Shown here: positions 26,601 to 56,600 of the stretch, piece after piece
How positions within the stretch are numbered: position 1 is the stretch's first letter
How the letters are laid out: the number at the start of each line of letters is the position of its first letter
Assembly (NCBI GenBank): GCA_029721435.1
Contig: CM056577.1
Coordinates: 29,170,719-29,234,718 of the forward strand
Origin: Gymnothorax reevesii
Lineage: Eukaryota; Chordata; Actinopteri; Anguilliformes; Muraenidae
DNA: 64,000 bases
Direction: 5' to 3'
Program-made: the position numbers and the translations under genes
The notes under the pieces: model-generated
What the model saw: the letters and a program-made list of their open reading frames with translations, nothing else
The model's database searches: none
Told to the model about the DNA's origin: nothing

Positions 26601-29600
26601 CTTGCGAAGATTCAACCAATGAGTGTATAAGAAGCGGTGGGGGACGGGCCCGTGCTTTGGAGGAGAGCTGCGAACTGTCTCACTCTCCTGAGTTGGCAGC
26701 AAGGGGTTGCATACGAGCAAGACTTGTACATAGTTCACCAATTGGGCATTCCAGATTCGGGTGGGATTGGTGATTTAGGAAAAAAAAAAAGGTTATGTGA
26801 AAAAGAAACGCACTAACTAAGAAGCTTCATGTGACGTTTGTTGCAGCATGGGGTCAGCGGTTTCCAAGGGAAACAAAAGTTAGCTTTCAGTCACCCTAGT
26901 TCGAGGAGCTTCAACGCTTCATTGGCACAAGTTTTTAATTCAGTTCTTTCCCTCAAAAGAGCCGATATTCGGAATCTACTCAGTCAATTTCTTGCTTCAA
27001 AAACGATCAGACGCGAATTCTATGATGAAACGGTACGTGAAGTCGATCAAATGCCGACGGCTGTCGTCCCTCATCTGTCATCTATACGGTGAATCTCCAG
27101 CTTGTTGCAAGGTATTTCGGGATTTCCGTCGCGAAAAAAGGAACCACTTGATGTTTCCTTAAAATTTTGCCAAAACCAGGTACCTAACTTGGTTGCTTCT
27201 GAAGCTTCCTATTGAGTTGAGACGGTCCTAAGCAGCCATATTTCCTAAAGATGCCACCTACTTAGGATGCTTCCTTGCAAATGAGACCAAACTAATATTT
27301 CAGTCCCCATGAGGACAGAAAAAGGAGACTGCGTGAGTATGTGTGTGTGATTGTGTAAAGTGTGTGTGTCTGTGATTGTGTACAGTGTATGTGTGTGAAT
27401 GTAAAGTGTGTGTGTCTGTGATTGTGTACAGTGTATGTGTGTGAATGTAAAGTGTGTGTAATCCGCACCGCGCTGCCCTCCACATGGCCCTCTTCTCGGC
27501 CTCCTGGGCGCGCCTCTCAGCGGGGGAGAGGTCTTTATCGAGGGCCACGCTGAGCTCTGGACTCTGCATCCGCAGCCTCTCCTGCATCCTCCGCTCCGCC
27601 TTCGCCGTGCGCACCGGGGCGCCCCCGTCTCCTGGAAACACCGGACTCGCCCTGCACGGGAACACCGGGAACGTCACGCCCCTCCCACAGCCAGACTCAC
27701 TACTCTACCTGCTGTCCGTCACTCTGGATTAGAGCGTCTGCCCAAGGACAGTAATGTAATGTAACATGACGTGATACACTGTAATGTAATGGACACAATC
27801 ATGCACAAACACACCCAAAGGCCTAAAACCCTTTGCGCAGAATATAAATAATGCCAATTTTTCCTGCTATGCACAAGCCTATTCAGGCTTTTTTACTCAG
27901 TGTGTGTGTCACATAGACTCTGGAAAATTATTCCAGTGAAGCAATGCATTTGGAAATTCATTCAAAGAATTATTTCGGAAATAAATTTAGGAATTTACGG
28001 ACGCCAGCGTCTAAATCTGCGCAAAGAGGTTTTAAAAATGCGCCTTGTGTTTGGACCAGGTTTCAGCCCAGGACCAATTAAAGTATATAAAAGAAAAATG
28101 TAAAACATTTAAATCTAAAACATTTATTTGTCATGCAGTGGTTTTGTTCCTAATCAAAAAGAGAGAGAGAGAAATTAAGATAATCTTGACCCTAACATGC
28201 TTTTTGTGAGGATTGAGGACAGGTGTTTTTTTTTTCTGGAATATAGTAGTGAGCCTATTATCAGTCTCAGAGTGCGGCAAGCGACACAGACGCTCTGGCG
28301 ACAGCGAGGATTTCACCAGCGAAAATCAGCGCTGTCAGATTTTACACAGTCACGGAGCTGGGCTGCGGCTACAGTCTGAAGCAGTTCTCCTGAGAGCTCC
28401 TCAGGGACTCTGGGATACAGTAGATGGAGACGGGCTGGAGCAATCAAGAGCTGTGGCATCAGTGTATGCTGCACTGCACTGACTGCAGGTGCTGCACTGC
28501 GTGTGTGTGAGAGAGCCAATTTAGTAATGGCTCTCAAAATGTCCCCAGGGTCCTCTAACGGAAGCCTTTTAAACTGGGCTAAACAGAGTGCACCAGTAAC
28601 AATTATGCGTGTTCAAACAATAAATTATACTAACACAGCACTCTGCAAAACTTATAGGCAAATTCTAAGCAATTCCTCGAGATAGTTCCAGAAAAAAAAT
28701 CAAAAAATGAAAGGTTTCCAATCGCTGGAAAATGTAGCACAAAGAGCTTTGAACCGTTAAAAAGTAAATAAAATAAATATTAGGAGTGACTACTCTTTAC
28801 TCACAAATTAGGAACATTTTCCAGCTGTTTTATGGTTTTGTAAGGAAATTGGCTCAATGACTGTTCAGTGCATATTGGAGTTATCGTACTAGGCCTCAAT
28901 GGTGTTGAGATTAAGGCTCCCGAAAAGCCTTATTATCCTTACCAACTGTCTTCAATGAAATACAAACTTTTTTCTTCGATTATTTTCCAGTCTAATATTT
29001 TGTGCCTAAAATGTGCTTTCTAATGTCTATAGCAAGATTAAGTCTATAGCAATTGCAGAAAATAGGCGTGCAATGCACGGAATACCCCTCAGCCCGATGT
29101 TGAAGTTTTCGGAGACGCCCGCCCGCCCAACCGCACGAAGGATAGTGTGGAAACATTTTTTTACTTGATTAATTTATTTGATTGCTTATTGATTCATTAT
29201 TATTAATTGATTATCCTTGCTTGCACATATTCTGTCTCAGTTCATAGGCCCAGTGTGTGTGTGCTTACATATTACTGATTTAGCATGGGCCTGCATAACT
29301 GTACCAGTGTCATGACATACAGCCTGTCTAAAGTCATGACAACTTCAATGTCTGTACCAAGGGCGAGATGTTTTTCTCTTTCTCCAAGTTTATGTGTTCA
29401 TAGAAAGCTCCGGAACCCATAAGATAAGCTGGAGCCAGAGCTGAGAGAGAAGGCAGGTGCTCTCCTCCCTGGAAAGATGTGTGTGTATCCCTAGACAACT
29501 TGACGTGGTTACGTACCAACTTGACGCAGTTGCGAGCGACAGCAAAGGCTCGCGTGATGAGTAAATCAGCACGGGGGAGGAGAATGCCATGGAGTATTCC

Positions 29601-32600
29601 TACAAATACCAGAGAACTTTCTAACTCTTTATCCTACATTCTGACTTGACGTTGTATGGGGATCCTTTTTTGCAAAAAAGTAAACGGACTTTGGCTTGGA
29701 TATTAACTTCTCTGTCTCCGACTGATTTTTTCTCAGGGTCGTCTGAGTTTCTTTTTGTGAAGGTAATACCAGGAATGTAAAATCAAAATTCCTTTAACAA
29801 TAGCAATACCCAGTCAACCTTGAGGGCTGAGGGGTAAAAACGAAAAATAAATGTCAAATATCAAATTTGCATAAGAAAAACCCTTGGGTGCCAAAAGCTT
29901 TTGCACAGTATTGTACATCATGATATGGATTTTCAAACATTTAAAGAAAAAGGGAATAATGTACCCTTCACCTAAAGCTCCAAAGCACTGTTCAAGAGCT
30001 CCTCTGTTTTCAACTATACTCAGCCAAAATAAAAACTTCACCCTCGTTTGGAGGTCGATAAGTTGAACACACAAGAAATGAGGTTTAAAATAATGATTTA
30101 ATTTAATTCTGTACTCATTAAAGATGGTGTATCATAAAAATAATGTCCATAATGTAACCAGTTCCACCGGAAATGCTACGGAAATGTTCAAGAGTAAAAA
30201 TGGTTAGTTACAACTTGAATAAGAGCAGTACGGAGGCGATTACCTATGGTTTGGGTAGTCACACGACCTCTAAACAATTCATTCCTAGTGGACGTTGCAG
30301 TGACAAATCGATTATGCAAATGATGCAAGACAATAAGTCGGTCTTCTGCTCTTGACGTCACGCGTGGGCTACCAGAACGAGGTCGGTCAGCTGTGGTGCC
30401 AGTTTGTTGGAGACGTGTCCGAAGGTCATGGATAGTTCGGCGACTGCATCCCATAACCCTTGAAATGTCAGTGACGGACGTTTCCATATTCAGCATGCCG
30501 ATAGCATGTTCACGCTGAATGTTTGACAGCCATGGCATTGAAAATCAACGAATAATTACCTGTAAAAACTTGTTTTTCCGAGATGTCACTCTAACATGCT
30601 AACGTGAGCTCAGTTGCACATCTCTCATATGGTCACGTGACTAGGAACACGAGAAAACATGGTTTTAGCTTAAAGTACGCTTGCACGTGCTACGTACCTC
30701 TGCATGTCGGAGTTGATGTGTGTCATGACGTCTTTGACAACGCATTTAACCCTAGTCATAACAAAAACTCTTATTAAAAGTTTCAAGAAAATATTTACAA
30801 ATTTATGTGTGCGAAGTTTCTTTTTTGACTCAGTACACAAACGGTGCCTGTTACATTAGAATCACAATGTCTGGTAAAGAACATTGTAATCATTTACATT
30901 TAATCCTACATCTCCAAAGGCTTAATGGAGAACATATAGTGTAGGTGCGGAACAGAATAAAGAGGGCCAAGAGGCATGACCAATAGGAAGCCGTACCCTG
31001 CGCTTGAGGGTGTGACGGGGGAGGTCACGGTTTCGACCTTGTACTCCACCCCGTCCAGCACCACCTTCCCCCGAGCCTTCACGTCCTCGAGGTCATCCTC
31101 ATCATCCTCGTCATCATCGTCATCCAGAAGGAGGTCACGGGTACACCGCTCAATCTTCTTCGCTGCAGGTGAGATGGCCAGAGGCATTTGGTTTGAGAAA
31201 AGCAAAATAACTGGGTTTGACAAGGAGTCAGGGCCTAATCAGGCCAAAAGAAATCAACCCTGGGGTCACAATTATACAGGTTAAACTTATTTACATGGGG
31301 AATGCTGATGGGGCGTGCTATGATCTTCAAAACCTCAAAAATAACAAGGAGTATTCAGTGGAGTGCATAGCCTCACAAAAACACAATCCTGACATGTATT
31401 TTTTCTGTCTGAAAACGGTAGAATTATATCCCCAAATGCCAAACGGCGTTTCGGGGATGTTATGTTTTTGGTCCGACCGCCGCCTCCGCGCCGCCCAACG
31501 TGTTAACGCGATAACTTCAGTAATATTTCTAGTAGAAATTTCATGTTTTGCATATAAGTAAGTATCATACAGAGGAAGAACTGATTCAATTTTGGACAAC
31601 TTACAATTTCTAGATTGGCCACCAGGGGCCAAAAACGGAAAAATCACTGTTTTTATCATATCTCTAGAAATATTTGTCCGATTGACCTCAAATCAAGTGC
31701 AAATGAAAGGTCATGACCCAAGGATGTGTCCCTCGATGATATTATACCTGTTTGGCTCAAAATTTGGACACAAGGTGGAGCTTTGTCACATAAAATTCAC
31801 CATTTTTGCCATATCCTTGGAACCATTTGTCCAATTGACATGAAACTATGTGCAACTGCAAGGTCATGACCTCACAATGTGTCACACGATGACATCATAC
31901 CTGTATAGTTCAATATTTCGCCACCAGGTGGCGCTTTGTGATGGAAAATTACCATTTTGGCCATATCTTCAGAACCATTTGTTTGATTGACCTGAAATTA
32001 AGTTCAAACGAAAGTCTATTCAAGGTCTACTCAAGGATTGGGGAATTGGAGGACTGGTGGTGTTCAGGGATATACCCCAAGCCGTCGCCTCTGACAGCAT
32101 AAGCCTAGTTTTTACATTGAAGAAATACTGTGGAGACCTCCAGAAGTAGAAAAAAAAATTTAAAAAACCTTCTACCCAACTGCTGACATCAGTCGGCTAA
32201 TCTTTGAGATTAGGTTACCTCAAAAACTATCAATATTTTATGAAACATTAAATATAGATTTTAGACTGAATTGACTTTTGGCGTTAACTAAGTCGTATGA
32301 CGTCAGGTTGTCGAAATATTACATATAAACGATTTAATGTTTTTTACAACATCACATCATAATGGTGTGGCATAACGTCCTCAAAATAAAGTCACTTCCA
32401 GAAATGAATATTGCCTACCTCCCTGTTAAGCTCGGCTCATATCGGCTAAGCAGTTTTTAAAATATATTGTACGCAGTCAGATGGACAAACAAACAAAGAA
32501 AAAACACAGGCAATTACATAAGCCCTAGTCAACTTCGGTGGTAGGGCTCCGAATCCTCTCAGCGAGCTCATCACACTCATCCTGGAATTGTGGGAGGAAA

Positions 32601-35600
32601 CCGCAGCATATTGGAGGAAGCCCACACACAAGCAGATACAGGGGGGTCTGCGTTTGAACACAAGCAGATAGATTGGGGTCTGAGTTTGAGAGGCGGATGT
32701 CAGAAGATAAAACCACCAACCTTCCTCCTCCTTCATCTTCTTCAGATCATCCTCCCCTACCAGGGACACGCGGGGCTTGCGCTTGCTCTCTGGGGTCTGT
32801 TTGACGTCGATCTCGAAATACTTCTGCCGGTCGCGGAAGGAGCGCTGTTCGGGGCTACTGAGGCCCTGGGGCATGGGGCTCTGCAGGGGCAAAGTGGGGG
32901 GGGGGTATTACAAAAATTCAAGGCCAAAACCACGCAAAGGAGAACCAAAATCTTTCATCAAAAATGATGCTGCGGCAGAGTGGTTCCCAACCTTATCCAG
33001 AGAGAGCTGGTTCGAGTGCAGGCTTTCATTCCAACCAATCAGGTACACTCCTGATTACGCAAATTAACCCCTGAAGAGTCTTTACTAAAGACATTGATAA
33101 GAAGAACCAGGTGTTAAACTGTATGGTTAGATTGAAAGCCTGTACCCACAACAGCCTTTTTATCAGAAGTCGATTTCAAAGGCAGCCGCAGTGGGGTGCT
33201 AATAAAGATTTAAAAGCGATCGTTGCATAAGGTTCCATGGGAAACGCCAACTCAGAAACTTCAGATTAAATATTAATGTGTTAGTTTTAGAAGTTGCCTT
33301 TCAAACGCTGTGTGATATTCTCGTTTGAAAGAATCAGACCGAGACACGTCAGGGATGAAGAACATCCCAAATGCAACTCACTACTAAAAATAATCGTAAT
33401 TAATACACAAAATGGAATTCCTTGATCCTGGACCAAAATTTAAATCAGCAACTGAGTAAAAATGCATCGACTGGGAAGTAAGTAACATAAGCCCAAATCA
33501 GAACAAGCTGGGACAAACTGTTCAGTTAAAATTCAACCTGAAAGCAGTGATTTGTGAATTATCCTTGACTTGTAGTTCATTGATAACAATACAAAAGCAC
33601 ATAATTCAATGTTTCACCACAACGATTTCCATGATTTTTCCCAAATGAACACATCTCAATTTGGATTCCAGCAACATATTTAAAACAAGCTGTGTTCGTG
33701 GAACACTAATACCCCCGGTGGCAGGTTAAAGTATTGCAGGTTAAAGTTTAATTCCCCCGCTGCAGACAAACGGACAGACGGACAGGTGAAAAACTACATG
33801 CCCCCGAATATTCGATTCCGGGGGCATAAAAAGTTGGGACTGAAGTATTTCCCGCTTGATAAAGCTATTTACACAACACTAAATATACCTCTAGGGACTG
33901 AAGACACCAAGTGATTCCCTACTGGGCCCTAATGGGGACTGCAGGTACATCAGTCCTGTATGTGCACCTTCTTTTCATGCAGCCAAGCCTTTGTCATGTG
34001 CACGCAAAACAGTTTTGCAATGTCTCGTTAAAATATGCATGGGCATTACCAGAAGCGATGTCTTATTCTCAGTGTACTTTTCTACATAAATGGTGCCCAC
34101 ACTAAAGTGCAAGTTACTCTTGCACAACAATAACAGCACATACAGTAGCTTTAGAACTCGCTGCTGCCTGGATGGTACTTTTCTTCCTTGGCCCGGTGCG
34201 TGCATTTTTAGACCTTAAATAGAGATTCAACTGATTGCAATACACATTTCCACTGCGTCATGGTCCATTTCAGACGCCTCCGAGCTCAGAGAAGTCGACG
34301 GTGCTTCTGCACACTGTTAGCATCAGGTTTCCAAGTGCATATTAAAGTTCTATTGGCATTTGTGGATGATACTACGAATTTTAGTACTTGACAAAGGTTT
34401 GGAAAAGTAATTGTGAGCCCATTTGGCTTTATCACTAAGAAATAAATGACAGATCTCAATGCAGTGCCGTCTGAGTATTCAGAGATCAGAGATTCCACTT
34501 CGGCTTGCGCCCTTGCCTTTCACACGCAGAGATTCCTCCAGATGCCTTGAATCTTATAATTACATCAAGCATTGCAGAAGGAGAAATATCCAAATGCCTT
34601 CCCGTCTTTCTTTGAGGAATATTTGTTTTCTTAGCCTTTGATTCTCACAGAAATTTGTGGGCAATTTGGCGACCCACAACCAGTTTTTGCTCCAGAATGA
34701 CTGAGCCTTTCCTGGACGCTGCTTTTATACCAAATCATGATTACAGTCACCAGCTGACATCAGTAGTTTCAAATCACAATGTGATTCATTTTTTAACACT
34801 CATTAAAAGTCCAAAATTGCCCTCATTCCAACACTTTGTGGAGTGCGTTACAGGCCTGAGTGGCAGGAATGCTTGCATATTTGCAAATAATAATGAAGTT
34901 GACCAGAAAAAACACAAAAAATCTTACCTTCAAACTGTCTGATATCAAACACAAGTCAAAGTAAATGCATAAATGACTGCTTCGTCTTTTTGCAAATTTT
35001 CTCTACCGTCCCAACTTCTTCCTAGATGGTGTTGGAGTTCTTATTTAAAAAAAAATACATTTGGGAAAACATTTTTCATTAGTGTTCTCCTATGGAGTAA
35101 TGCAGACACACTGTAGCTTGCAGGGTTTTCCTAACATTGAAAGACGGCTAATTACTGCAAGCAGGAGGATAAGAGTAAGAGGCAGCAAGTAAACAGAAGA
35201 CCACTTGCACCCAGAAGCGGATAAAGGGCAAATCCCCAGGTTTCAAGAAGATTCTTGGTCCAGCTGGATAGAAGCGCCACAGTGCCGAATGCTACTAAAA
35301 TCCCAAGACTGGAAAGTGAATGACAGGAGCACATTTGACAAGAGGAGCACCAAGGAGCTGGAGCCTTCATTTCAAACCTAATTTGGAAACCCCTCACCTC
35401 CCATAAATCAGCAGCTCAGTGCGGAAATTTTGCTGTTGAGTGAGGTGTGCTTTGTTAGAATTTGAATGAAAAGCAACAACATGACAGGAGTCTGGGCACA
35501 AGATTAGTGACCACGTGCTGTGGATAATCCAGGCATGGTCTTTGAGTCAAACACACGTGGAGGGCTCACATTACAGGCTATAGGCCCATCTGAATGAGCC

Positions 35601-38600
35601 GTTTATGAAGACACAGAGGGGCATTCATTTCATCACCAAAGAGCGGAAACAATATATTGAAAGAAAGCAGTACCGCGTATTATGACTAAGAGCTGAGCAT
35701 AGCTTTCTAGAACAAAGTCTTTTTCAAGAGTTTTGAATGCACAACGAAGTCGGTGAGAACCACAGTCTACAAACCCACAAATAGAAAATTGAGTAAAACA
35801 GGATCGGAGTTTCTGCTTTTTGTAGATTCAGATGTTTGCCAGATTGTTGATATTTCTCGTTATAAATAATCACGGACATTATACATTTATAACGTGTAGT
35901 CAATAGGTGCAACACGCACTAAACAAATTTTTCATCAAATGCCAGAGAGTAGCCTCTGGTTCTCACCCCCTCCGATGTTGACTGGTTAAATGACAGTTGG
36001 CAGACACTTTAGGTGAATCGCTGACAGGACAATCAACACCATGCCTGCCTGCTTCTCGTTCGAATCTCTATGGTCACAACTGTACCAGGTTCCAATCTCT
36101 CCAATGATGCACTTGGAGCACTTCCAGTCCTCAAGTTAATATTTGAGGCAATGGCATGAGCAGTTTTGGGAGGAATTCTGGCATCGATTTGGCGTGCTCC
36201 AGCATCCACTGTAGTAGCTTCAGTACAGTTTCAGTCCAGTAAACGTTAAGAAAACAGGACAGAATGAGAACCCGTGATCCCACCACCGCCACCAAAACAG
36301 CACCGTCACCAAGGCCCTCTCCAGAAGAGCCCAGCAGCCATACAGACCCACACCCTGCCTGGGCACGGAGACCACGGGGAGGGGAAGGTACCTGGAGCTC
36401 CTGGGAGGGCCGAGAGACCCGCGGTACGGCCGCCAAGTTCATGTACTCCTTGCGGTCGGAGGTGAGGGTGGGGCGTGGGGAGATCGGGGGCTTTTCCTTT
36501 CCTTTACTCACATCGCCCCGCCCCGTCTCCTCAAACACCTCATCAGACTGGGGCTGCAGGAGCCACAGAGAGGACTCTGATCCAGGGAAGGACTACCAAA
36601 CACACTCACACACCATACGCGTACTGCACACATGGGCCACTTGCGCACACAGCCTGTACCCATAAGGTATTCACACACCAAATTAACACACAAGGTCTGT
36701 CCACATCAAGTATTTACACATGCCACTGTGGGCTGTCCTGATATGGTGTTCTCTCGCACACGCACTCTCACTCTCACACTCACTCTCACACACACACACA
36801 CACCCCTAATACACCTGGACTGACCCTTTAAGATATTTACCAAGGTGCAATTGCTTACTGAGAACATTGTGGATGAATGCAACTATGAGTCTGAAATGGA
36901 TATTCCTGCAGATGAATTCAGTTTGCTTTCTTCTCAGAAGAGGAAGCTGAAAGATGGGGAGCAGAAATAAATGTAAAACCGCAAATGCAGTTCAGAGTAT
37001 AACTGGTCACAACTCTGAGGCAGCGTGCCCTGCGATGGACATTTATGTTGGTCAGTTGAGTTCGAAGCATACGTTCCGTGATGTTCAGGGTTGTATATCG
37101 TGTCTCGAGGTTTTTCGCATATTTCAGTAGTTCTGTCGGCTGATAAACCTGCCGACAAATCTTTAAAAGTGAGTGTGTTTCAAAAGGATGGGGAAAAGTT
37201 GAATATTGTTTTGGAAAGGTGTACAGATGTTTTTCTGCGTATTTGTGTAATGGGGGATTTTAATTGTCCTGAGATTGATCGGAAACAAATGTTTGTTCCA
37301 AGCAGAGGTGAGGCGCAGCATTTTTGTGATGCAGTACATGATTTTCTGTTCGTACCTTTGGTCTTTGGTCCAACTCAGAGATGGCAACACGCTGGATCAA
37401 ATTAACTAACTCACCGGAAACTGTTCCATTTACTGATATCTGGTCTGGTGTGCTTGACTCTGACCACTATTCCCGCCATCTTAAACATTATGCTTCACCC
37501 TGTACGTATTAGAGGTGTTAAACGTTTAGTGTATGATTACAGTTCGGTTGACTTTAATGGAATGAGTGGTTTCCAGAATCAAAACCTCAGCAATTCCCTT
37601 CTCACTAAACACAGATCGTCACAAAGAGACCACATTTGGCATGATAGGTAACAAATTCTTGGTCAAGCATTAGATTTTTTTAGTTCCAAAACGTGTCGTC
37701 CGGGATAACCGCAGAGCACGTCGGACTGACGCCGAAGTAAAGCACTTGTCGAACAGGGTAAAACCGTCACGCCACAAAGTAGAAAGCAGCAAAAAGCAGT
37801 CAGACTGGGACAAATTTAGAGGTCTCAGGAACAAACTGAGGCAATTTTCTTGTGACAAATATGGAAATTGTTACTTCTGTAGGTCAAGAGTTTAAGTCTA
37901 ATCCGAAAAAAATCAGGTCCTTTTACAATACAAGTCGAATTCTGTACCCTCCACTGTGAAGCTGGGTGAGCGGTGTGCTTCTGATAGCAAAGCTAAAGCC
38001 AGGTTATTTAACGAGCACTTTCATTCCGTTTTTACCCGCAGGTCACATGATGTCTTACCTGATACTGATATACATTTGAAAACCCATTTTTGACGATGTG
38101 GAGTTTTCTAGAAATGACATTCAACTTGTTTTATCTCAACTAGATGTTAACAAGGCACATGGCCCTGATAACATCTCTCCTCGTATTTTAAAGCTTTGTT
38201 CTCATGAATTGAGGTTTCCATAGTCATTTCTTTTTAATATGTCAATTTCAAATGCCGTTGTACCTTCTGACTGAAAAATAGCCAATACTGTGCCAGTGTT
38301 TTAGAGAAAGGACAGGAAATCAGTAGAGAATTACCGAGGTGTCTCTCTTTTATCAGTAGTGACCAAGGTGATGGAAAGCTGTTTATTCAATAGGATCAAT
38401 CATCATAGCGAACCCCTTCTGCATCCATCGCAACATGGTTTTCGTAAGGGTCACTTGACAGCTACTCAGTCAGTGCAAACTTTTGATAAGATTGGTAGAT
38501 TTTTAGATTCTGGTGGTCAGGTTGACGTATTGTACATTGATTTTTCTAAGGCCTTTGATTCTGCACCTCAATCTTTCAAGTCACAAATTACGTGCTTTTG

Positions 38601-41600
38601 GTATTCATGGTAATTTGTTGAAGGGCTTTGAATCATATTTATCAAACAGGGTTCAGGAGGTGTCTATAGAAGGTAGAGCATTGCAGCCTTCCTGTGATTT
38701 CTGGGGTTCCACAGGGCTCTATTTTGGGGCCTCCATTGTTCTCCATGTACACAAATGACTTGCCGGCCACTAGCAGTGATTTAACTGACTCTGGCCTCTA
38801 TGCCGATGATGCAAAGTTTTTAAGAACAATATTTAATTAATCTATCAATGTTTTATCTTAAAAAATGTGCCGTTATTTCAATGTCTTTGTGTATATTCCT
38901 AGCATAGTGAATCTTAAATACAGAAATTAATTAATAAATTTGCACAGACCACAAACACACAAGGGCTTTTTCAATGAGGTCTTTACACACATCACTTTCA
39001 CACAAGCCCTATCCCAATAAGGTGTCAATGAGCACACACATACCACTTGCACACAGGGGCTATTAACACAAATCTCATGTTCACATGATCTGCAAAACAT
39101 TCAATTTACAAACATGGAAAGTTAGACGTGACTTACATATAAGTGCTATCCCCAGAGGGTTTTACACGCAACGTGTGCACAGAAAGAATGTGCCGATAAA
39201 TCATTTACACATGAGAATTGTCAATTCATGTTGTTTTTTTTGGACTGGTCATTATTCAGAAAAATATAAGAATTATACTTTCCAAAGTGACAAAAGGAGA
39301 AAATATAAATACATACCAGATCTGAAGCCCAAACAGCAAGTATTTGAAATTTAAAATAAATTTTAAAAACTAACCAGAGGGGAGAAACCAGAGACTAAAA
39401 CAGCTGATAGAAAAACTAGCAGAGGAAATACTGGGAAGAGCCTGGGAACATTAGTGGAGCCCATCTTGTACTAAGAAATCTATCAGAACTTATTAGAGAG
39501 CTTCAAAATGGCTACTAAGGTATTTACATACATACAACTGGGACAGAAGCCATTTACACACAAGGACCATCACCACTCATCGCAGTTAGTAAGGAAAAGA
39601 GGAGAACAGAGTTATATGGAGAGGAGGAGAACGCCCGTGATATGATTTCAATCCTGCTACCAATACAGCACCATCAACCAAGGCCCTCTCCAGTGGAGCC
39701 CAGTAGGCATACAGACCCACACCCTGCCCAGGCACGATGCCCACGGGGAGGGGGAGATACCTGGAGCTCCAGTGAGGGCCGGGAGACCCGTGGTACGGCC
39801 GCCAAGTTCATGTACTCCTTGCGGTCGGAGGTGAGGGTGGGGCGTGGAGAGATCGGGGGCTTTTCCTTTCCTTTACTCACATCGCCCCGCCCCTTCTCCT
39901 CAAACACCTCGTCAGACTGGGGCTGCAGGAGCCACAGAGAGGACTCTGATCCAGGGAAGGACTGCCAAACCCGCACCACACACACGTCGCGCACATCACA
40001 TACAAAACACTGATGTTGCGTGTGTGATGTTGAACCATGTGTACACAATGATCTTCTCACAGGCCATAAGGCATTTTAAAGCGCTTGTTCAACCAAAAAT
40101 AAGATGAGGTCCGCAGAATCTTAAATATAAATACATCCTCTGTGCGCTTGTCATTTCAAATTATAATTAGCCGTTACAAATTTATTCGCATTTTAATTAC
40201 AGCAAATCGCGATCAACTCGGAAAGAACTGATCTTCGGCGATGACGTCACAGAGGATATCTCGCCAGCGGCAGAAAACACACTCATCATGATCTGTAATT
40301 CTGGATTATTCCTGTGAGAAAATGCCGAGTATCTGCTTTTTTTACGACTGCAACAATAAAGCCGATGCAAGCAGAGGCATCGTGGTCCATAAATTTCCAA
40401 AAACCCCAAAATTCAAAAGGCTTGGGAGGATTTTGTGAAGATGAAATAAGCAGATTTCATGGAGCATGGATCAGGATCGGTGATCTGCTCTGATAACTGC
40501 TTTTATCAGCTAAATCCGGAGTCACAGGAAAAGTCTGGATGTCACAGTGGGTTAGTAATTACTGAAATTGCCGCTTACTATGCCATCGGTTAATAAGCCA
40601 AGCCCAAACTGCTCTGGTCCCGACTTTTTCCCCTTCTGTATTCAGAGAAGCTGTTTATAAACCCAGGGAGCCTTTTAGTAAGCCCATCCTAAAGTGAGTG
40701 GAGAAACTATTTTATGCATCACAGTTAGTAATGAAAAGAGGGGAACACAGTTAAACACCCTGTGATATGATCTCACTCCTGCTACCAATGCAGTTCCATC
40801 ACTATGGCCACCACCAGTAGAGCCCAGCAGCCATACAGACCCACACCCTGCCCAGGCACGATGCCCACGGGGAGGGGAAGATACCTGGAGCTCCAGGGAG
40901 GGCCGGGAGACCCGCGGCACGGCCGCCATTTTCATGTACTCCTTGCGGTCGGAGGTGAGGGTGGGGCGTGGGGAGATCGGGGGCTTTTCCTTTCCTTTAC
41001 TCACATCGCCCCGCCCCTTCTCCTCAAACACCTCGTCAGACTGGGGCTGCAGGAGCCACAGAGAGGACTCTGACCCAGGGAAGGACTGCCGCACGAACAC
41101 CGCCAGCTCACCGCACACACACACCGCTTACACAGACTCACAATGTGAAAACATGCGAGCCGCATAAACACCACGTATGCACAAAGCCTTCTCACAAACC
41201 ATTTACACTCAAGGTCTTACACAACCGTGTGAAAACAAAGCCCTTCTCAAAATCCACCACTTATAAGGTATTCACACACACTACTGACACAGACGGGAAA
41301 TACCTACAAACCATGTGTGTGCGAAGACCTTCACATAAGCCAATTTGTGCACAAGGACTGCCCCCCTGAGGAATTTACACACACCGCTAATTCGCAAGAG
41401 CCGTCTCGAAAAGGAATTAACACAAGCATCAAGTATACACCTGGACGGTCCCCAGAGGGTATTTACAAAGACCACTAACACACAAGAGCCTTCTCTACAA
41501 GGAATTTACACACGCCACTTACACACAAGCCCTCTCGCCATAAGGTGTTTTCTCATTTAAGGTATTTTCTCTCACACACACACACACACACACACACCAC

Positions 41601-44600
41601 TTACAGACAAAAGCTATCAACACAAATCTCATGTACGAAAGAACCATTGGGTCATTCCAAATAATCAGATTTTCAAAACACCTGTCACCATGTAATCATA
41701 TATTGCTTCCATATTTTCACATTTGATAAATATGCATTAGTGATGAAAAATCTGAAATTTCAGCTCATTCAGACAAAAAATGATTTTTTGGTGAATTATT
41801 TTCTAAGGGTACTGTCTGCCAGTTTTTTTGTCAATTGACATTTTTCTTGTATTTAATATGGCGGAACTTTTTCATTATCACACCCATGGCTTTGAATCTT
41901 TGCATCTAAGCTAATGTTATACTGTTCAATCAGAAAATGCAGTCCAATGTACTTCATCTTTCTTTGTTCTGGAGCAATGAGCACACCAAAAGTGCCTTTT
42001 GTTCAGGCAGTTCCACGTTTAGGTCCCCAAAGCACCCCCAATATAAACCCTTGCATAGGCTCTCTGGCCTTTTTTCCCATTCGTTCATGTCTGCAAAATA
42101 TAAATCAGGCTGAATTCACCATGAATTCATCAACAACTGCAGTCAGTACCTTGCCAAATGTGGAAAAAAAGTTAAATGCTAAAATGCCACCTCTGCAAAC
42201 CCCCGTATCACCAGGGGCACACCTTGGATTTTCTTCAATTTTTTTTTTTAACTGATTCCACTATTATAGTAGAAAGACCACTCCAAAAAATGTTGATGTG
42301 CTTTGACCAATATAAATTTTGCAGGTCTGAACAGGGGTGGGGTAATCTCAAGAATCGCTTGGCATTTCCAGCTTCTTACACAATGTTAATGACTATTGAA
42401 TCACAATAATTGTAAGTTCTCAATTCATCAATGCATGACACATTCACAGAAAGGTCAGTATGTGCAGGTTGGTAGATCATGTTTGCAAGGAGAAGCCTAA
42501 ACCCAGTTATTGATCATTAATATCTGATTATTGCTATTGTTTTTCATGAAGCGAAACAGGAGGACACAAGCATGAACATGGACGACTTCTGAAAAATGCT
42601 TGGTGCCATTCAATAAACTTCTCTGAACCGTTTCAACTCCTGAGGTCACTGGACGCACAGCCTGGCAGTAGAAGTTGGACAAAACTGGGTCAGACAACAC
42701 TGTTGTGCTCTTTGCTGCATTTAGGAAGCAATAACACTGTTAACACAGCATGGAATACAAAGTGTTAATTTGACAGTCAGTTTACAAAAATTAGTGTCAG
42801 TGAATTTTATGATGCAAAGAAGTGTGATTTTAAAAAATTGCCTGACCCCTATTTAGACAGTTGTGAAATGTATGTCGTTCAAGTCACATCAACAATTTTT
42901 GTTTTGTTATGTCTACTATAATAAAGGAATTAGTACAAATTAGTATGTGATTGCCTAATGATTGAAAACACTTAAAATGTTGCATAGTTAAATATATAAG
43001 AAGCTTAAAATGCCACGCGATTCTCAAGATTACCCCACTGCTGTTCAGACACCTGCAAAATTTATATTGGCCAAAAGACATCAACAATTTTTGGAGTGGT
43101 CTTTCTACTATAATAGAAAAATCAGTTAAAAAAATAGAAGAAAATCCAAGGTGTGCCCCTGGAGATATGGGGGATTGAACAGGTGGCATTTTAGCTTTTT
43201 TTCACATTTGGCAATGTACAGACTGCAGTTGGTGATGAATTCATGGTGAATTCAGCCTGATTTATATTCAGCACACAAAAATGGATGGAAAAATGCCATA
43301 GAGCCTATGCTAGGGTTTACATTGGGGGTGCTTTGGGGTCCTAAACATGGAACTGGCTGAACAAAAGGTACTTTTGGTGTCCTCATAGCTTCACAAGCAA
43401 GAAAGAAGTAGTAAAATTGGTTGCATTTTCTGATTAAACAGTATAACATAAGCGTAGATGTAAAGTTTCAAAGCTATAGGTATAATATAGTTATGCCATG
43501 TTAAATACAAGAAAAATGTCAATTGACCAAAACTGATGGACAGTACACTTAGAAAATAATTCACCAAAAATTCATTTTTGGTCCGAATGAGCTGAAATTT
43601 CGGATTTGCCAGTGATATATTTATGCAGTAGCATACAAAAATTCGCAAAATTGAGAAGATGGTGAGACCCATTTGATGATCTGACATGGAATGACCCCAT
43701 TACACATTCAGTTTACATTACTTTCAACTCCTGTCCCCAGAGGGAATCAACTCCCACCACTAACAAGAAATGTCCCAATAAGCCACTTCCACGCAAGAAC
43801 TGTCAATTCAAGTAACAGGTCACAGCTGGAATTATCCTTTAAAAATAAATGCTAGAACTGTACACCAAACAGGCAGAATTTGAAGTATAAAATAAAGAGA
43901 AAAAAAAACTCCATAAGGGAAGAAACAAAACAGTCAAACAGCTAAAAGAAAAACTACCGTAGAAGAAATCCTAGGAAGAAACTGGCTACATTGGGGGAGC
44001 CCATCTCTCAGTTGAAAACCTATGAAAGCTTTTCAAATAGTGTGACACGGCTACAACTGAGGTATTTACTCGAGCCATTTACACACAAGGACCTTCACCA
44101 CCCATCACAGTTAGTAAGGAAGAGGGGAACAGAGTTAAACACCCAGTAATATGATCTCATGACTGCCAACAATGCAGTTCCATCACTATGGCCTCCACCA
44201 GTAGAGCCCAGCAGCCAGTCAGACCCACACCCTGCCAAGGCACGATGCCCACGGGGTGGGGAAGGTACCTGGAGCTCCTGGGAGGGCCGGGAGCCCCGCG
44301 GCACAGCCGCCATGTCCATATACTTCTTTCGGTCGGAGGTGAGGGTGGGGCGTGGGGAGATCGGGGGCTTTTCCTTTCCTTTACTCACATCGCCCCGCCC
44401 CTTCTCCTCAAAAACCTCGTCAGACTGGGGCTGCAGGAGCCACAGAGAGGACTCTGATCCAGGGAAGGACTGCCAAACACACTCACACACCATACACATG
44501 TGCCACGCACACCACTTGCACACATTGGCTCTACCCAAAAACCATGAGTTCATAAAGACCTTCTCATAAACCATTACACACCAGAACTGTCCCTACAAAC

Positions 44601-47600
44601 CACGTGTACACAATGATCTTCGCACAGGCCTTTTACACGTAAGGACATTCCACACCCCGGGTTACACTGTGGAAACACATCAACAGTGCACCTTTATTGT
44701 CCGCTTCTCTCCAACAACAAATATTTTATCTGAGTATGTCCACGCTTTTCTAGATCACGCATAATAACTGAGCAGGTTTTTCCACATTTAAATCAACTCA
44801 GTGCCAGGAGGAAACAGCTGGAAGAGATTCAGCTGTAAATAAGCCCTTTTTGTGCAGCTACGGTATTGGAAGTTACATGTTACAAAGAAAATCCACAATT
44901 CACAAGTCTCACTGCAACCTGGACTCTGTATAAAGACTCACCTCTGGTGACATATGCCTGGAGTTAACATGGTTCTTCTGGCCAGAAGGCTCCTGAAGAA
45001 ACACAAAGAACCAGGAATTAGGACAGAGATGAATTACGACAGAGCGGAACCAAGCAGCCCAAGAGTTCAACAGGCTTTTGGGAGGACAGGGCTGGACTTG
45101 CGGAGAGGACACAACACCACAAGAACAACACACACAGCACAAAATAACTTTGTAACCATTGACATCCAAGTCCATCAACCCCCGAAGTTTATCGGAAGGC
45201 GTGCAGAACAATTCCCTTCAGATCATCGTCGTCGTCATGCAAGGGCGGAACAGGTCAAATCGCTCGAGCAAGCATTTTGCCACATCATGCAGTAGGCACA
45301 CAACTCTCTTGCAAGGCATTGTGGGATAGAAGAGCCAGCCAATCAGGTCCTCCAGATGCAGGGACCCAGCCTACCTGACGCGGCTCCAGTACAGCCAAAG
45401 AGTGCGGCACTGCTGCAAAGGCTTTGTACGCCTGCTTGATATTGGCGGGAAAGTCGTCGGGCGAGAGAGGGGAAGGGGTGAAAGGCTGCAGGGTGGAACG
45501 GAGAGAAAGAGTGGAGGGAGGGAGAACGGAGGAGGAAAGAAAAGGCAGATCAGAGCAAGGAGAGGGTTTGAGTAGGATGAGGGGAAAACGATATTGCAGA
45601 GAGGCACCTCAAAAGGAAGAGAAAATAAGACTTGAGGACCTAGTTGAAGAGGCCGCAAAATTAAGAAATGCCTGAAGAAATGAGATTAATTGCAGATTTG
45701 CCAATTATAAAGTTATCATTATTAAATGTGTACTTTGTTTCTGGTCAGTCTTGTCTTAACTTGTATTTCTTTTGTTGCTCAATATAAATATATCAAATAT
45801 TTATATAATTACACCAGCAATTTCAACAGTTACTGTACAATACCCAGGATGTCTTGCCAGGCAAAAATTTGAGTCCCAAGTTAATTCTGAGTTACAATCC
45901 TTTTTAACAAAAAACTGCAATTCACTTGCTCACCAATCTGGTATCAGATCTGGGCAGAACACTATAACTACTACTTACCCAGTTATAAATGATACTATTT
46001 GTACACAACATTGCATAGCACTCTTCATTGACCCGCCCTTTTCATTGGCCCAAGGCATTTGATAATGTTGATCATGTCCTTCTGAAAAGATGTTCAGATA
46101 CTGGCTTTGATAATTCTGCTTTTAACTGGTTTAAAAAACTATTTTGAGGATAGAAATCCATGTTTATCATTTGAAGGCCTTCTGTCTAGGGGTGTTAAAA
46201 TCAGTAGGAGTCCCACAAGGCTCAATTCTTGGACTTTTGTTATTCACCATCTGCATCAACAACATTGGCATTATATTTAGATCATTGCAATTCGCATTAA
46301 TATGCTGATGATACTTTCATTTACTCAACTGCTTCTTCAATTAAGTGGGAAGTATCTAATCTTCAGCACGATTTAAATTATGTTCAAGATCCTCAATTGG
46401 GTTAAAGCCCGCCTGAAATGAGAACAAAGCCAAGTTCATGGTATCCTCCAAATCTTAAAAAATAGACCCCCATGACCCTCAATATTTGTACCTCCCAGGG
46501 TGGAAAAATTGACCCTTAGCCCAATTGTTCATACTTGGGTATTTGGCCGGATGGACCTGACTTCTCATATGCATATTGAAATTTGACCAAATTGAGAGGA
46601 GGTGACAGGTTTCTGATACAGAAATAGGGCTTGGTTAATTTTGAAAGTAAGAGGAAGGTTGTGCATTGACTGATACGTACTTCTGTAATTTACAGAAATG
46701 CATCTACTTCTGTTTTAAAACATTTCGATGCGGCTTTCTGCTCTACCATAAGGTTTATCACTGGTCTTGACCTCCGAACCAATTGTTGTGCAATAAAAAA
46801 GTTAGTTTTGTTGGGGGTCATCAAAATCTAGACGAGACTACCATTGGTTTTTGTTTGTTTATAAATGTGTTTAAATAAAAATCCAACCATATCTATCCTC
46901 TCTTCTTACATGGTAAAAGGACTTCTGTCAAGAAGTTCCTCATATTAGAGCAGTGCAGGGTAAAACTGCTTTGTGAAACACATCCCTTAAATCTGGAGTC
47001 AGCAACAAGGTGAGCTCAAACTGAATGAACTGCTTCCTTTTGGCTTTTTTAAGACATTGATCAAATCTTTTTATCAAAATAACTGCTCTTGTTTTAAGCA
47101 GTTGTATTTTTAATTTAATTTTAATTTTCTTTTTAAAATTCTGTATTTTGATGCAGGGCTCGGCAGAAAAGGAGGCTTTATTCTCAGTCAGGTACCCTGC
47201 CAAAATAAATCATGAATAAACTAAGAATACAATATAATGGGTTGATTTATGGTGTGCAACCTCAGCCGGTGTGTGGTGAGCGTTCTGGCACAAAATGGCT
47301 TCTGTGCCATCACTGCTGTGGGTGTTACACATCGGTGGCGGTGAGGTGAATTTTCCCCTCGTTCCCTCTGTAAGTCCCTTGAATTTACATTCAATAAATG
47401 CAATCATATGACCACTGTAGAGGCCAGCATGACAGGTAAAGCAAATACACACCCCCTTCACCCACATTCATTACAGGGTAACTGTAGTGGTCCACTACTT
47501 CTTAAATCTAGGTGAGAATACATAAGAATCAATGCACTTAAAAAAATAAAGTTCTTATACTTTCTTCAGCAGGGAAAAACATAATAAACTTGAATGATTT

Positions 47601-50600: not shown

Positions 50601-53600
50601 AGAACAGAGTCTGAACTCCCTAAAGAGACTGTATCAAGTTTTTTTTTGGCCAAAATGTCTTGGTTCTTGCTGGAATCTATGATTCCTTTGACAAGGTAGA
50701 CCTGTCAGAGACACAAAAGCAACCAAACACCGTCAGACGCAGACCAGTATACACCACCAAAGATAAGACAACCCTTTCAAAATAGCAGCACAGCTTTTGA
50801 CAGCAAAGCCTTGTGCACTAGTGTGTGTCCTGTAAAGGTAACTATTTGGTGTCCCCTGTTCAAAACACTTGACTGTCAAAATTCGGCATCATAACTTAAG
50901 AGTGGATGAGGACAACTTTTCCACAGTTAGTGCTCATTCTGGAGAGAGCTGTAGATTCATGGGGGAGTGAAAGACCCAGTGCTCACCGGCTGTGTGCTGG
51001 GGGAGTAAGGGGCATCCCGGGGTGAGTACGGAGAGCCCCTGGGCGAGTTGGGGGCATCTCTGGGGGAGAACAGGGTTTCGCGGGGGGAGTAGGACCCCTC
51101 TCTACAGGGGCTGCTCGTCCCCTGGTGCTCTGTGGAGGGAGTCTGCAGGAAGAGGAGAGAGAAGCACAGTCACGCACCCACCAGCCAATCAGAGAAACCA
51201 GAACATCTACCCCACCCCTCAATCATGCTGAGAGGCCAATCAGAGAAACCAGAACATCTACCCCACCCCTCAATCATGCTGAGAGGCCAATCAGAGAAAC
51301 CTTAACACCTAAGCCGCCCTCAAAAATGCAAACAGGGTGACAAAATGTCGTTAATGACAGAGAAACACAATGAAGAAACACTGGAATAAATCATTATATC
51401 AGTTGATTGGCAATTGTTGAGCACATCTGAAAGCAAAAATTAGAAAACAGTATATCAGATTTTAAATGACAAAAGGACTCTTTTTATTCTTTCCTTACGA
51501 CAAATTACAATCACAATAGAAATACAACTGCACTCTGAAAGCAAAACAAACAATTTCCAAAAGGCACCAATTTTACCTTGAACAATCATAATTTAATACA
51601 GCACACTTCCGTTTCCCGATGAAACTTCTGTAAACTACTTGTAACCTGCAGTACAGCGGTCTTATCTATACCTTACTGCAGCAAAATGTTGCTCAACACC
51701 TGATCAGAGATGTGAAAGGATCCATACCCATTAAAATCCAGTCACAGAGGCACTCTCCAACATCACATCATCATGTATTTGAATGATCAGAGATCATTAA
51801 GCACAGTCATTAAGATCATTCCACATCATCAGAGACCATTTGCGTGAGTTCTGTCAGTGCCATGGTTGTGGATTGGCTAGATATTCTGAGCAAGCTTTCA
51901 AAGCAGTTCACGCTGACTTCTCAACATTCTGGGAGAGGCATCTGATAAAGGAGAGCAGCAACAAACTATTTGGTTTGCACTTAAAGCAAGCCGTCAAAGA
52001 GTACAATTGCGCACATGTCTAAGCATTACATTCAGCAAGATAGAACATTTTTGCCACATGAGGGTTAAAGAAAGAAGATGGACTACTATTTATATTATTC
52101 ACATTCTTTTGATCGACAGCCCTGCAGAGGAGACTTTCAGGAATAAATCACCAAAGCGCAGAAGTTTTTTTAACCCTTTAACATCAATTTGAAAATTTCA
52201 AGTTGGGTGCCTATGAAAAAGTGGATTTTCTCCAAAAAATTCCCAACAGATTTAAAAAATTTTTTGCATTTTTATCTGCTCACTAAGACCTACAAACTGA
52301 CACAGGTCTTGTTTCAGTATCTTTTTTTTTTAGACTTTCAAGCACTTTAAACCCAGTGTGCAGACTAGGTAACGTCCCATAAATGTAAAAGTTTAGCTGG
52401 GTTGGACGAAACTGCCGTGAAACCTCAGATAAGTTCATGCCTATGACAGCTGGCAAAGTTAGTAAAGTTGGGGCAAGAAACAGATCATATCGCCTGAATA
52501 TGATGATCATATATACAGATTTTCCTTAGTTAACATTAATCAGCTTACTAGGTGGCTATATCCAAAGAGCAACGAAATTTAATACGTGATGGCTCACTTA
52601 GCAGAGTCTGGCTGTCATGATCAAAGATGATAGAGAATATGAGCATACGAAAGCCTCCCGTGTCTCAAGTGCATGCATGTGCTCCCCAGAAGCTGATTGG
52701 TTGGTATGCAAATGAGGAACATCATTTTCCATCCATTCAAAGTCATTAAAACTTCTCCGACTGCTGAGTGGCTCGGGAACTCGGAAGTTCGCAGTCCAGC
52801 GAGTCGGGATTGGTGAAATATCGAGAATTTTTGAATCACATTTTTTTGCGAAGGGGTAGTTATGTTGATTAGCATTTTGTCAAAACTGCTAAAATTTGAT
52901 TTGCATTTTGCGATGTGAATCTGCCTAATCTGATCACTGTGTTTGTATGAAAGATTTTCCAATGGTAAAACAGCTGCAATAGTTAATGAGTGCAGAGGCA
53001 TGCTCTTTGCCAGATTTCGGGAATTTGATGGAGGCAACAAGTCTCTACATAAGGGATCCTAAAATTCGGCCATCCAATGCAAAGCTGCCCTCAGTTTTCC
53101 TCTCTGCTTGGTAATTAACCAAACAATTAGCACTGCCACACTTCACTGACTCTCAGGTGAAGGGAGGGAGGAAGACCAGAAGTTCTTGGGCCTCAAGGGC
53201 CGGGATTTGAGCATAGGGCTCGACGTCGTGTGGACAGCCCCAGCACCTCACCTCTTGCTTCATTAAATTAACAGGCTTGCAGTTTTGCGCCAATTGCCTG
53301 AATCGCATCGCAAAAACATTCTAAATCATGTTTTAGCCACACTGTTGCCCACTGGCACTGGATTTTGGGAACGAACACAATACAAACTGTTCCAGAATTC
53401 CTGCCAGAGACCGTCAAAGAACTCCATCATGCCAGAACAAGAACGGCTCGCTCTTTTATGGGAGTTTTACAGTAACCACGGTAACCACTGAATCCCAGAA
53501 TAAAAAAAATTGAACAGAGAACAAGACTGGCCATGCAGATGCACTGCTGGCTAATCCAGGGGCTAACTACTCATAAAATTACATGCGCCTTTGTTTCATA

Positions 53601-56600
53601 CAGGGAATTAACTCTTTGAACAGCAGGTTTATATTTCTGAATTCTAAAACATTCCAGAGCTCTGTAGCTTACAATGATCAGAGGTGATCAGAACAGTCTG
53701 TACCTCATACATGTGACTAAATTTACACACCGGGTTAAGCATTCTTAAAATTAAATAATTTCTAATAAACTTGAGAAGCACAAGGTACATTACTGGGCTT
53801 AAGATATGCAGTCAAGTGCCAAAAGGACCTAAAACCATCGGCCTCAAAAAGGGCCATAGTGGAGGCAGAGCGATACTCACCCGGTTGACCCTCTGTAGGC
53901 TGGTGGTGGGCAGAGCCGCCAGGGTCTTGTAGTCCAGTTTGAGGGGCTCCAAACTAACGTTCTGAGATAAAAGAGGAGAGACATGGGTCAGGAGGTCAAG
54001 GGTAAGGAGGGGTCAGGCCTGAGCAGCAAGAGACCTTCTTTCTGCACTAAAAAGGAAACCGGTTTTCCTGCTTCAAGCGTACAAGAAAATTATGCAGACA
54101 TTCCGATCCCCCCAATGGACTATGCGGGAATCATTTTTGTGCTCAGCGTAGAAAAGAAAGCAAAAGTGTATTCAGTAGCAGCCCTTTGAGGAGTTTGTTG
54201 AGGCGCTGCACCAAATTCCAACTCATTCGCACCAGCAAGTGGCTGCCGCTGCTTCAGATGTTCAGTTACATTCAGCCTGAGCCGGTGACTGCACTTTATC
54301 TCCACCTAGTGGACAATAGAGGAATTGCAGACTGCAGGTCACCACTCAGCTCCACCTCCCTCAGGTGACTAGCCTCTCACACTACAATCGCTTGCCTCCT
54401 TCTGATCAGGGCGTGGCGCAAAAAAAAAAAAAAAAAGGGATGGGCCCAGCCACACATGCAGGGATGAAACAGAATGCGAGGATGGCAGAGGGGCAAGGGA
54501 AAGTTCTGGGTGAGAATTTCATCGTGGCAAGGGCCCTGGAAATGCCTTAAGTGGGGTCGCAAAAAATAACACACAGTTGGTGTCAGGAAAAAAAGGCAAA
54601 ATGGGAGGGAGAGGTAAATGTAGATAAGCGCGCATGTCAGAGCAAGACTCCTGCAACAACCCAACAGAGAGAGAGAGAGAGAGAGAACGAACATCTGGCA
54701 CCATCACCTCAGGAGAACTCCCAGCAAACATCCTCAAGAAGAGCCACACCCAACAGAATACACAATCAGGACTCGCCTTTAATACCCTTTGAAACTCTAA
54801 CCCAGCGCTGTGCTGGGAGTATTACATCACACACTCGCTTGTTTTGTACTGGCAAGCACCCCTGAGGAGTAGAGGATAAGCAGATTGTTTTAGATTCAAA
54901 TATTCTTTCCAGTTCCAAGTCAGTATTCTAGAACTCTATTATTATGCCCCGCCGCGCGATTAGCACGAAGTGGGGGATATAGCATTGGGCTCCGTCCATC
55001 CGTACGGACACATAAAATTGAGGCGGCGGGGGATATTGCCGTGATGGTGGCAAACACTTGTTATAAATTGGCAGTAGTGACTGTGACATCACTGGAATGT
55101 TTAGTACACATTATTCTACCCACACATAAGCTATCTCACACCTTACAAGGGTTCAAAATGAGCACCTCCTTCACAAATGTGAAAGCATCGACGAACAAGC
55201 TGACACTGAGTGCCAAGAGAACCTCACAGCCCAAAACTATTATTAATAAATAGCAGCATGTACCTATGGCAAGGCAGAGATATACTAACAACCATTCCTT
55301 GCGCTCCTGCATCAGTGACTGTTATACAAACCTGCATGAAAACTCAATATCACAGTCCCAAGGTCAAAGGTCAAAGGTCAAATCCACTAATGACCCTGAC
55401 TTTCCACACCAACCCCTCAGAAGAAACATGTACATCAAATGTGAAGCTGCTGTGGATGTATGGCCCGGACAAAATGTTCAAGTTCAAGGTCACTTGTGCC
55501 AAGGTCAAAGGTCAAATCCACGAATGACTCTTGCGTTGCTCATCTAACCCTCACAAAGAACCTGCATTTCAAACTTGGGGCAACACTTTTGGAGATACGG
55601 CCGAGAGAAATTATGGAGCCACCACCCGCCTAACCGCCCAGACATCACCAGATGCAACAATAAAGGGCAACTGGGGAAAAAATGGACGTTTCTTAACACT
55701 GACTTTTTGTTTTCGTTTGTCCTATGAACCTATAAAGTATTTGATGTAAAAAAATTAAGAGTGATTCAAGTTTCAACTCAATCATGTAAGAGGTGCACTC
55801 TATTGCAGATCAAGCAAGAAAGTGCCCAACTTTGACAAACTTTATCTCAAAAACAGTGTCATAAAATGACAATGTTTACTTGATGTGTTCACAAATTCGT
55901 CCAACATCAAAAACATAATCTGATTACGGTTGTGTGAGACAACTCAAATGAAAGTCAAACAACATTTCCTCGATTGCACGCCCTGTCAAACTCCTGGTGA
56001 GGCAAAATGTACTGACTGGGCAAAGCAGAACCTTTCGTTAATCTGGCTCTCAACTTTAAATTGGGCTGAAGTCTATACACAGGTGGAAATATGCCACTAA
56101 GGCTCAACGGAGCCCTCGACTTGGGGGGGGGGGGGGGGACGTTGGAGGATCTTGGCTGCCATGTGCACTTTGATCCAGGGCAGTCCTCACCAGGAGGTCT
56201 ATGTTCCAGTTTGCGCTCAAGCAGGGGATACTGCTCTTACAGGCAGACTTAGGAGTGATACATTGGTGTCACATTCTAAACCCACAGGAGGGCAGTAAAA
56301 CTCACCGCCTTCTCCTGATCCTCTCTCCCTAGATGGGAGGGGCCCCGCGATGTGTCTACCTCCTGCATCAGATGAGGGTGGGGGGGGCCAGAATGGAAAG
56401 AGAGGAGGAGAAGCATGGAGAATGGGGTTGGATGGGAGCGAGAGAGATGGAGAGCAGGAAAGAAAGAGGAATAGAGAAGGGGGTGAGAGAGGGGAAAACA
56501 AAAGAATGAGTGAGAGGTAAAGGGGTGCATAATTGAGGGGGGCAGGGCCGTGATACACCCAAAATAACACTGCTCCCTTCGCAATAACAGCTTGAATCTC

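Follow-up and report, generated by a model that had tools for sequence, protein, structure and literature searches.

What does a moray eel gain from carrying the same exon four times in a row in the gene of a polarity scaffold, and what could the repeated module do in the protein? This question is raised by a 64,000-nucleotide stretch of the Gymnothorax reevesii genome (GenBank assembly GCA_029721435.1, contig CM056577.1, positions 29,170,719 to 29,234,718; hereafter the window, to which all coordinates refer), where four nearly identical exons follow one another within scrib, the gene encoding Scribble. Our data suggest, with a probability that we put at roughly 0.55, that tandem duplication to four copies of a cassette exon with a spectrin-type motif could raise the cortical valency of Scribble and let splicing tune it.

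A tandem array of four scrib exons

The gene that carries the array is, judged by homology, scrib. Specifically, the translation of a PDZ exon in the window has its best PDB match in human SCRIB (4wyt, E = 1.2e-26), i.e., it is a scribble-type PDZ domain, and the proteins closest to the assembled window exons are fish scribble, either annotated as such or recognisable. A previous reading of the window made from its letters only (the sequence-only reading) had described four 162-bp phase 0-0 scrib exons with a shared acceptor and donor, and had pointed out that each can be skipped without a frame shift. Both descriptions hold, and all four exons are on the minus strand. In transcript order these are copy D (44269-44430), copy C (40885-41046), copy B (39761-39922) and copy A (36392-36553), each of 162 bp and each encoding 54 residues including an SADH-like motif. 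Every copy is open and phase 0-0, with the acceptor GCTCCTGCAG and the donor CTCCAG/GTA; the splice sites are all GT-AG and nearly identical among the copies, the donors reading CAG/GTAC or CAG/GTAT. Symmetric exons are not special to the array, because all exons checked from the SADH1 exon to copy A are multiples of three in length.

The pairwise nucleotide identity among the copies is 149-156 of 162 positions (92.0-96.3%), corresponding to 2-5 amino-acid differences per pair, and the variable residue positions, put at about six by the sequence-only reading, are exactly six (10, 36, 39, 40, 46 and 51). With copy D as query against the whole window, blastn gave four full-length matches (E <= 5e-53) and one further, weak match of 37 bp (21547-21583, E = 0.067); tblastn found just the four, and there is no fifth copy in the 64 kb window. 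Identity is 93-100% in the 45 bp upstream of the copies and 79-90% in the 110 bp downstream, the repeat blocks are 323-688 bp long, and the distances between the copies D-C-B-A are 3384, 1124 and 3369 bp with introns of at least 0.96 kb. Adjoining homologous exons of equal phase in one gene, together with duplicated flanks, are the marks of tandem exon duplication.

An SADH-like motif in every copy

Human SCRIB has three SADH motifs with the consensus Y-[KR]-X-[FL]-A-A-[ILV]-P, which bind the CH1 domain of beta-spectrin and the third of which is encoded by the 25-residue alternative exon 36 (Boeda and Etienne-Manneville, PMC4350421); three repeats are described in the vertebrates tested there. 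According to the same report the Y, the AA and the P are required for binding to CH1, repeat 3 can lose both of its positive charges without noticeable effect, and SADH mutants exchange faster and are less stable at the cortex. We scanned the window in six frames for Y..[LFMI]A[AG][VLI]P and obtained exactly seven sites, all on the minus strand and all in scrib exons. The sites at 53931, 45428 and 13945 fit SADH1, SADH2 and SADH3, respectively, and the SADH3 site is in a 25-codon exon, the length of human exon 36 (PMC4350421). The remaining sites are those of copies D (44322), C (40938), B (39814) and A (36445), and their motif would represent a fourth SADH-like type.

In the four copies the motif reads Y-x-x-[LM]-A-A-V-P and is situated toward the end of the 54-residue module. 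The Y, the A-A doublet and the P are present in all four, the hydrophobic residue at Y+3 is M, M, L and L, the aliphatic residue before the P is V throughout, and an R at Y-3 provides a positive residue in every copy. Within the motif the copies differ solely in the free x residue and in the hydrophobic one (M/L). The core is also conserved beyond the morays: among 58 distinct teleost exons, picked through a flanking anchor located in the exon's first half and hence independently of the motif, the Y, the first A, the V, the P and the R are each present in 58/58, L/F in 58/58 and the second A in 54/58, whereas that first half is for the most part variable. Moreover, all four exon types end 9 or 10 codons past the motif proline, which would fit older duplication among the SADH exons, and we infer that these exons may have arisen from one another in this way. 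A search of PDB sequences with the SADH2 exon peptide and with a copy peptide gave 0 matches each at E up to 10.

The array resembles the SADH system of human SCRIB (PMC4350421) in that the motifs are in the C-terminal linker of the same protein, share the Y-x-x-hydrophobic-A-A-V/L/I-P core and are found one per cassette-type exon. It differs in that the moray copies have M for K/R, belong to a fourth exon type and are repeated four times in tandem, their binding being putative only. As to the splice signals, the SADH3 exon of the window has the same kind of donor as the four copies, without a G at +5.

Copy number in other fishes

When the joined window exons were used to search proteins, Gymnothorax javanicus (giant moray, Muraenidae) came first among the matches listed with 1539 bits, the next having 883. 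Of the 544 residues compared in 12 exon segments other than the array, 539 are identical to the G. javanicus protein, and 405, 391 and 381 to those of Conger, Megalops and Anguilla, respectively; this comparison leaves out the SADH2 exon, since the G. javanicus model lacks it. In this model (P0001) four copies of the exon are joined in frame. With the P0001 array as query, P0001 itself scored 542 bits, Conger 126, Megalops 100 and others at most 96 (among the best 120 of 1003 matches).

The sequence-only reading had proposed to compare copy number among related fish, and this comparison, run on protein models, places four copies in G. javanicus, two in Conger and one in the other teleosts listed. 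In numbers, 188 of the 302 proteins collected bear the exon, i.e., 186 with one copy, P0001 with four and Conger conger P0003 with two, as counted by a regular expression that missed at least three exons whose core or end is altered (P0185, P0194 and P0230). Other teleosts have the single exon at the same scrib position, e.g. Megalops (P0002), Anguilla (P0049) and Chanos (P0057). There it is a homologous module between the SADH2 or small exon and the downstream exon, as is the array in the moray; the difference is one of number, with one copy in these fishes, two in the Conger model and four in both morays. A new exon specific to morays was considered and rejected, given the homologue in teleost scribble proteins. 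The exon is an old, teleost-wide single-copy cassette and not new in this fish; neither this nor the putative spectrin motif of SADH-like type that it carries had been part of the sequence-only reading. None of the 64 rows that carry the tetrapod-type flank SFRE has the exon (five of them, four birds/alligator and one newt, were checked by eye), in listings that did not include mammals, gar, bowfin or sturgeon.

The single exon behaves as a cassette in the models of other teleosts. The teleost-type flank SFRD is present in 237 rows, of which 49 were scored as lacking the exon, a number that becomes 46 once the three altered exons named above are subtracted. Models both with and without the exon are present for 11 species among the models listed (Solea senegalensis, Mastacembelus armatus, Nothobranchius furzeri, Scophthalmus maximus, Amphiprion ocellaris, Echeneis naucrates, Salarias fasciatus, Gouania willdenowi, Sinocyclocheilus grahami, Kryptolebias marmoratus and Scleropages formosus). 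These models give no estimate of frequency, because many of the short ones are automatic, some contain translated intron, and the length rule that was applied favoured short isoforms. The SADH2 exon is likewise skipped in some teleost models. That a moray protein may carry anything from zero to four copies, as the sequence-only reading had suggested, is plausible since the single-copy exon is skipped in the models of other teleosts.

Because four copies are present in both morays, the array predates the split of the two species, unless it was duplicated twice. The view that the copies stem from recent duplication under constraint is upheld for the duplication and, as detailed below, for the constraint, while "recent" is limited by the four copies in two morays.

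Proposed function of the array

We propose that a scrib cassette exon in the linker that follows the PDZ domains, single in other teleosts, was expanded by tandem duplication to four in moray eels. Each copy would add to this flexible linker a 54-residue module ending in the SADH-like motif, and in moray mRNA the copies would be spliced in at varying number. Every copy included would contribute a weak contact to beta-spectrin CH1, provided that this version of the motif binds, amounting to as many as four extra contacts. Alongside the three SADH sites that other vertebrates have as well, these would give higher avidity and would hold Scribble longer at the cortex. With every copy in phase 0-0, splicing could determine how many sites are present and leave the reading frame intact.

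A comparable arrangement is known for tau, where splicing of exon 10 gives 3-repeat or 4-repeat tau and so sets the number of weak cytoskeleton-binding repeats, as it would in moray Scribble. The tau case concerns another gene and another filament, and in the moray the repeat exon itself has been multiplied. Tandem exon duplication and SADH motifs are each known; their combination, in which a polarity scaffold carries several copies of a cassette with a spectrin motif, was in none of the papers listed in searches of an open-access library, nor did those listings name this case among splice variants or exon duplications of scribble.

A stronger version of the proposal is put forward tentatively, and we regard it as possible although doubtful: moray Scribble might be a splice-adjustable multivalent tether with up to seven spectrin-type motifs, four of them in tandem cassettes, in which the copies spliced in set the cortical residence time, and the single exon of other teleosts might provide fish Scribble with a fourth spectrin site that has been overlooked. 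If the copies bind, the array would constitute a natural experiment in which exon duplication took a tumour-suppressor scaffold from four motifs to seven and splicing adjusts how many are used. Fish Scribble would then have a fourth spectrin site that is outside the three-motif description.

Alternative explanations

Several observations weigh against a role of the array in spectrin binding, and the main doubt concerns the residue after the motif Y. It is M in all four copies and not the K/R of the consensus, and among the 58 teleost exons it is M in 46, L in 8 and R in 2; in human SADH2 the substitution R1322W at this position abolished binding (PMC4350421). For want of this K/R we call the copies SADH-like and not SADH members. 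The missing residue lowers the claim of membership and not the claim that the copies may work like SADH. The motif core is moreover altered in Perca and Etheostoma (percids; LAGVP), Dallia (LASVP) and Electrophorus (AAVRP), perhaps through lineage-specific loss of the site, and in Conger P0003 the first copy has P in place of the motif Y and the second is shortened in the model. As to inclusion of the copies, their donors are without the G at +5, and the G. javanicus model P0001 may be pure prediction. Finally, a copy-by-copy comparison of the two morays shows differences at 14 of the 216 residues of the array, against 5 of 544 in the 12 other exon segments (Fisher p = 4.5e-5). This faster change could reflect relaxed constraint or shuffling among copies. 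In such a comparison copy D is nearest to the G. javanicus copies J1 and J2, and copy B to J3 and J4, with C and A having no clear placement; J2 is close to its neighbour J1, with 2 differences, and local gene conversion is possible there.

The strongest rival is that the expansion was near-neutral and gave a longer disordered linker, in which the copies are mostly all included or all skipped and spectrin binding is unchanged. The faster divergence of the array between the morays, the lack of the consensus K/R and the loss of the tyrosine from one of the two Conger copies all speak for it. On the other side, the reading frame, the splice sites and the motif core are intact in all four copies, and synonymous changes exceed expectation. 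Parsimony assigns 10 synonymous and 7 non-synonymous changes to copies A-D, where 39.75 of the 162 sites are synonymous (binomial p = 0.0027, the 17 changes being taken as independent), and non-synonymous divergence per site (dN) between copies is 0.017-0.042 compared with a synonymous divergence (dS) of 0.08-0.23. By this measure the coding sequence of the copies is under constraint within this genome, and we consider a neutral longer linker rather unlikely, though not negligible. The sequence-only reading had also offered gene conversion as a cause of the likeness of the copies. The downstream intron differs by 10-21% between copies, which is similar to the exon dS, and because synonymous exon divergence and downstream intron divergence are alike, gene conversion is not needed within the window.

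It is unlikely that the array multiplies the motif for another partner, e.g. through YxxPhi adaptor binding or phosphorylation. Every copy does contain Y-x-x-hydrophobic, and both S/T-P and R/K are abundant in the exon. The YxxPhi sorting rule, however, does not require A-A-V-P-R, and conservation in the 58 exons extends through A-A-V-P-R (with the second A in 54/58), i.e., beyond what YxxPhi needs. Moreover, the three sites of human SCRIB for which spectrin binding is proven share this core (PMC4350421).

Mutually exclusive splicing, where each transcript takes exactly one of the four copies, is a common outcome of tandem exon duplication (PMC9013439, PMC9741552), and the moray exons resemble the cases described there in being adjoining, homologous and of equal phase and length. 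They differ in that no feature forcing a single choice was found here. The exons are 3n in length and phase 0, so that double inclusion is not eliminated by a frame shift, the introns are at least 0.96 kb, the nearly identical GT-AG sites offer little local basis for a choice, and the G. javanicus model joins all four copies; we hold such exclusion to be quite improbable. A repeat that was collapsed or falsely expanded in the assembly, a possibility raised by the sequence-only reading and a familiar risk in that repeats 92-96% identical can mislead assemblers, is very unlikely and was rejected, as the three spacers differ both in length and in the elements inserted into them, the copies bear private substitutions, and four copies are likewise present in the independently annotated protein of G. 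javanicus.

Neighbouring exons and inserted elements

With the closest protein mapped onto the window, scrib exons run from approximately 60.4 kb to a stop near 8.54 kb, with a further PDZ piece upstream at around 61.1 kb. Leucine-rich repeat (LRR) Pfam entries are listed for the G. javanicus protein P0001; the N-terminal leucine-rich repeats of scrib fall outside the window. All exons described here are on the minus strand. The SADH1 exon (53881-53961, 81 bp) and the SADH2 exon upstream of the array (45375-45485, 111 bp) are both phase 0-0, the latter being missing from P0001 and from several teleost models. A small phase 0-0 exon of 51 bp (44942-44992, 17 residues) is present between SADH2 and copy D. 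Downstream of the array is an exon at 32721-32880 with an acceptor of phase 0, and the SADH3 exon (13895-13969, 75 bp, 25 residues) has the donor GTACCC.

Two of the spacers contain inserted elements. In the D-C intron there is a foldback element of about 2 kb (41748-43607), the inverted arms of which (43607-42997 and 41748-42378) are 85% identical over 633 bp. The B-A intron has a fragment of a reverse transcriptase (RVT_1, E = 2.1e-10) of the long interspersed nuclear element (LINE) type at 38305-38613 on the plus strand, antisense to scrib. Without these two elements all spacers would be approximately 1.1-1.3 kb.

Elsewhere in the window a Tc1-like transposase with a 379-residue open frame and the domains HTH_Tnp_Tc3_2 and DDE_3 is located near the PDZ3 exons (61476-62615, minus strand), and fragments of transposase-type helix-turn-helix are found at 18130-18423 and 30188-30544 (both minus strand). 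Two perfect tandem repeats border scrib exons, one of 51 bp x 2.3 just upstream of an exon (51184-51301) and one of 46 bp x 2.3 just downstream of another (27354-27459).

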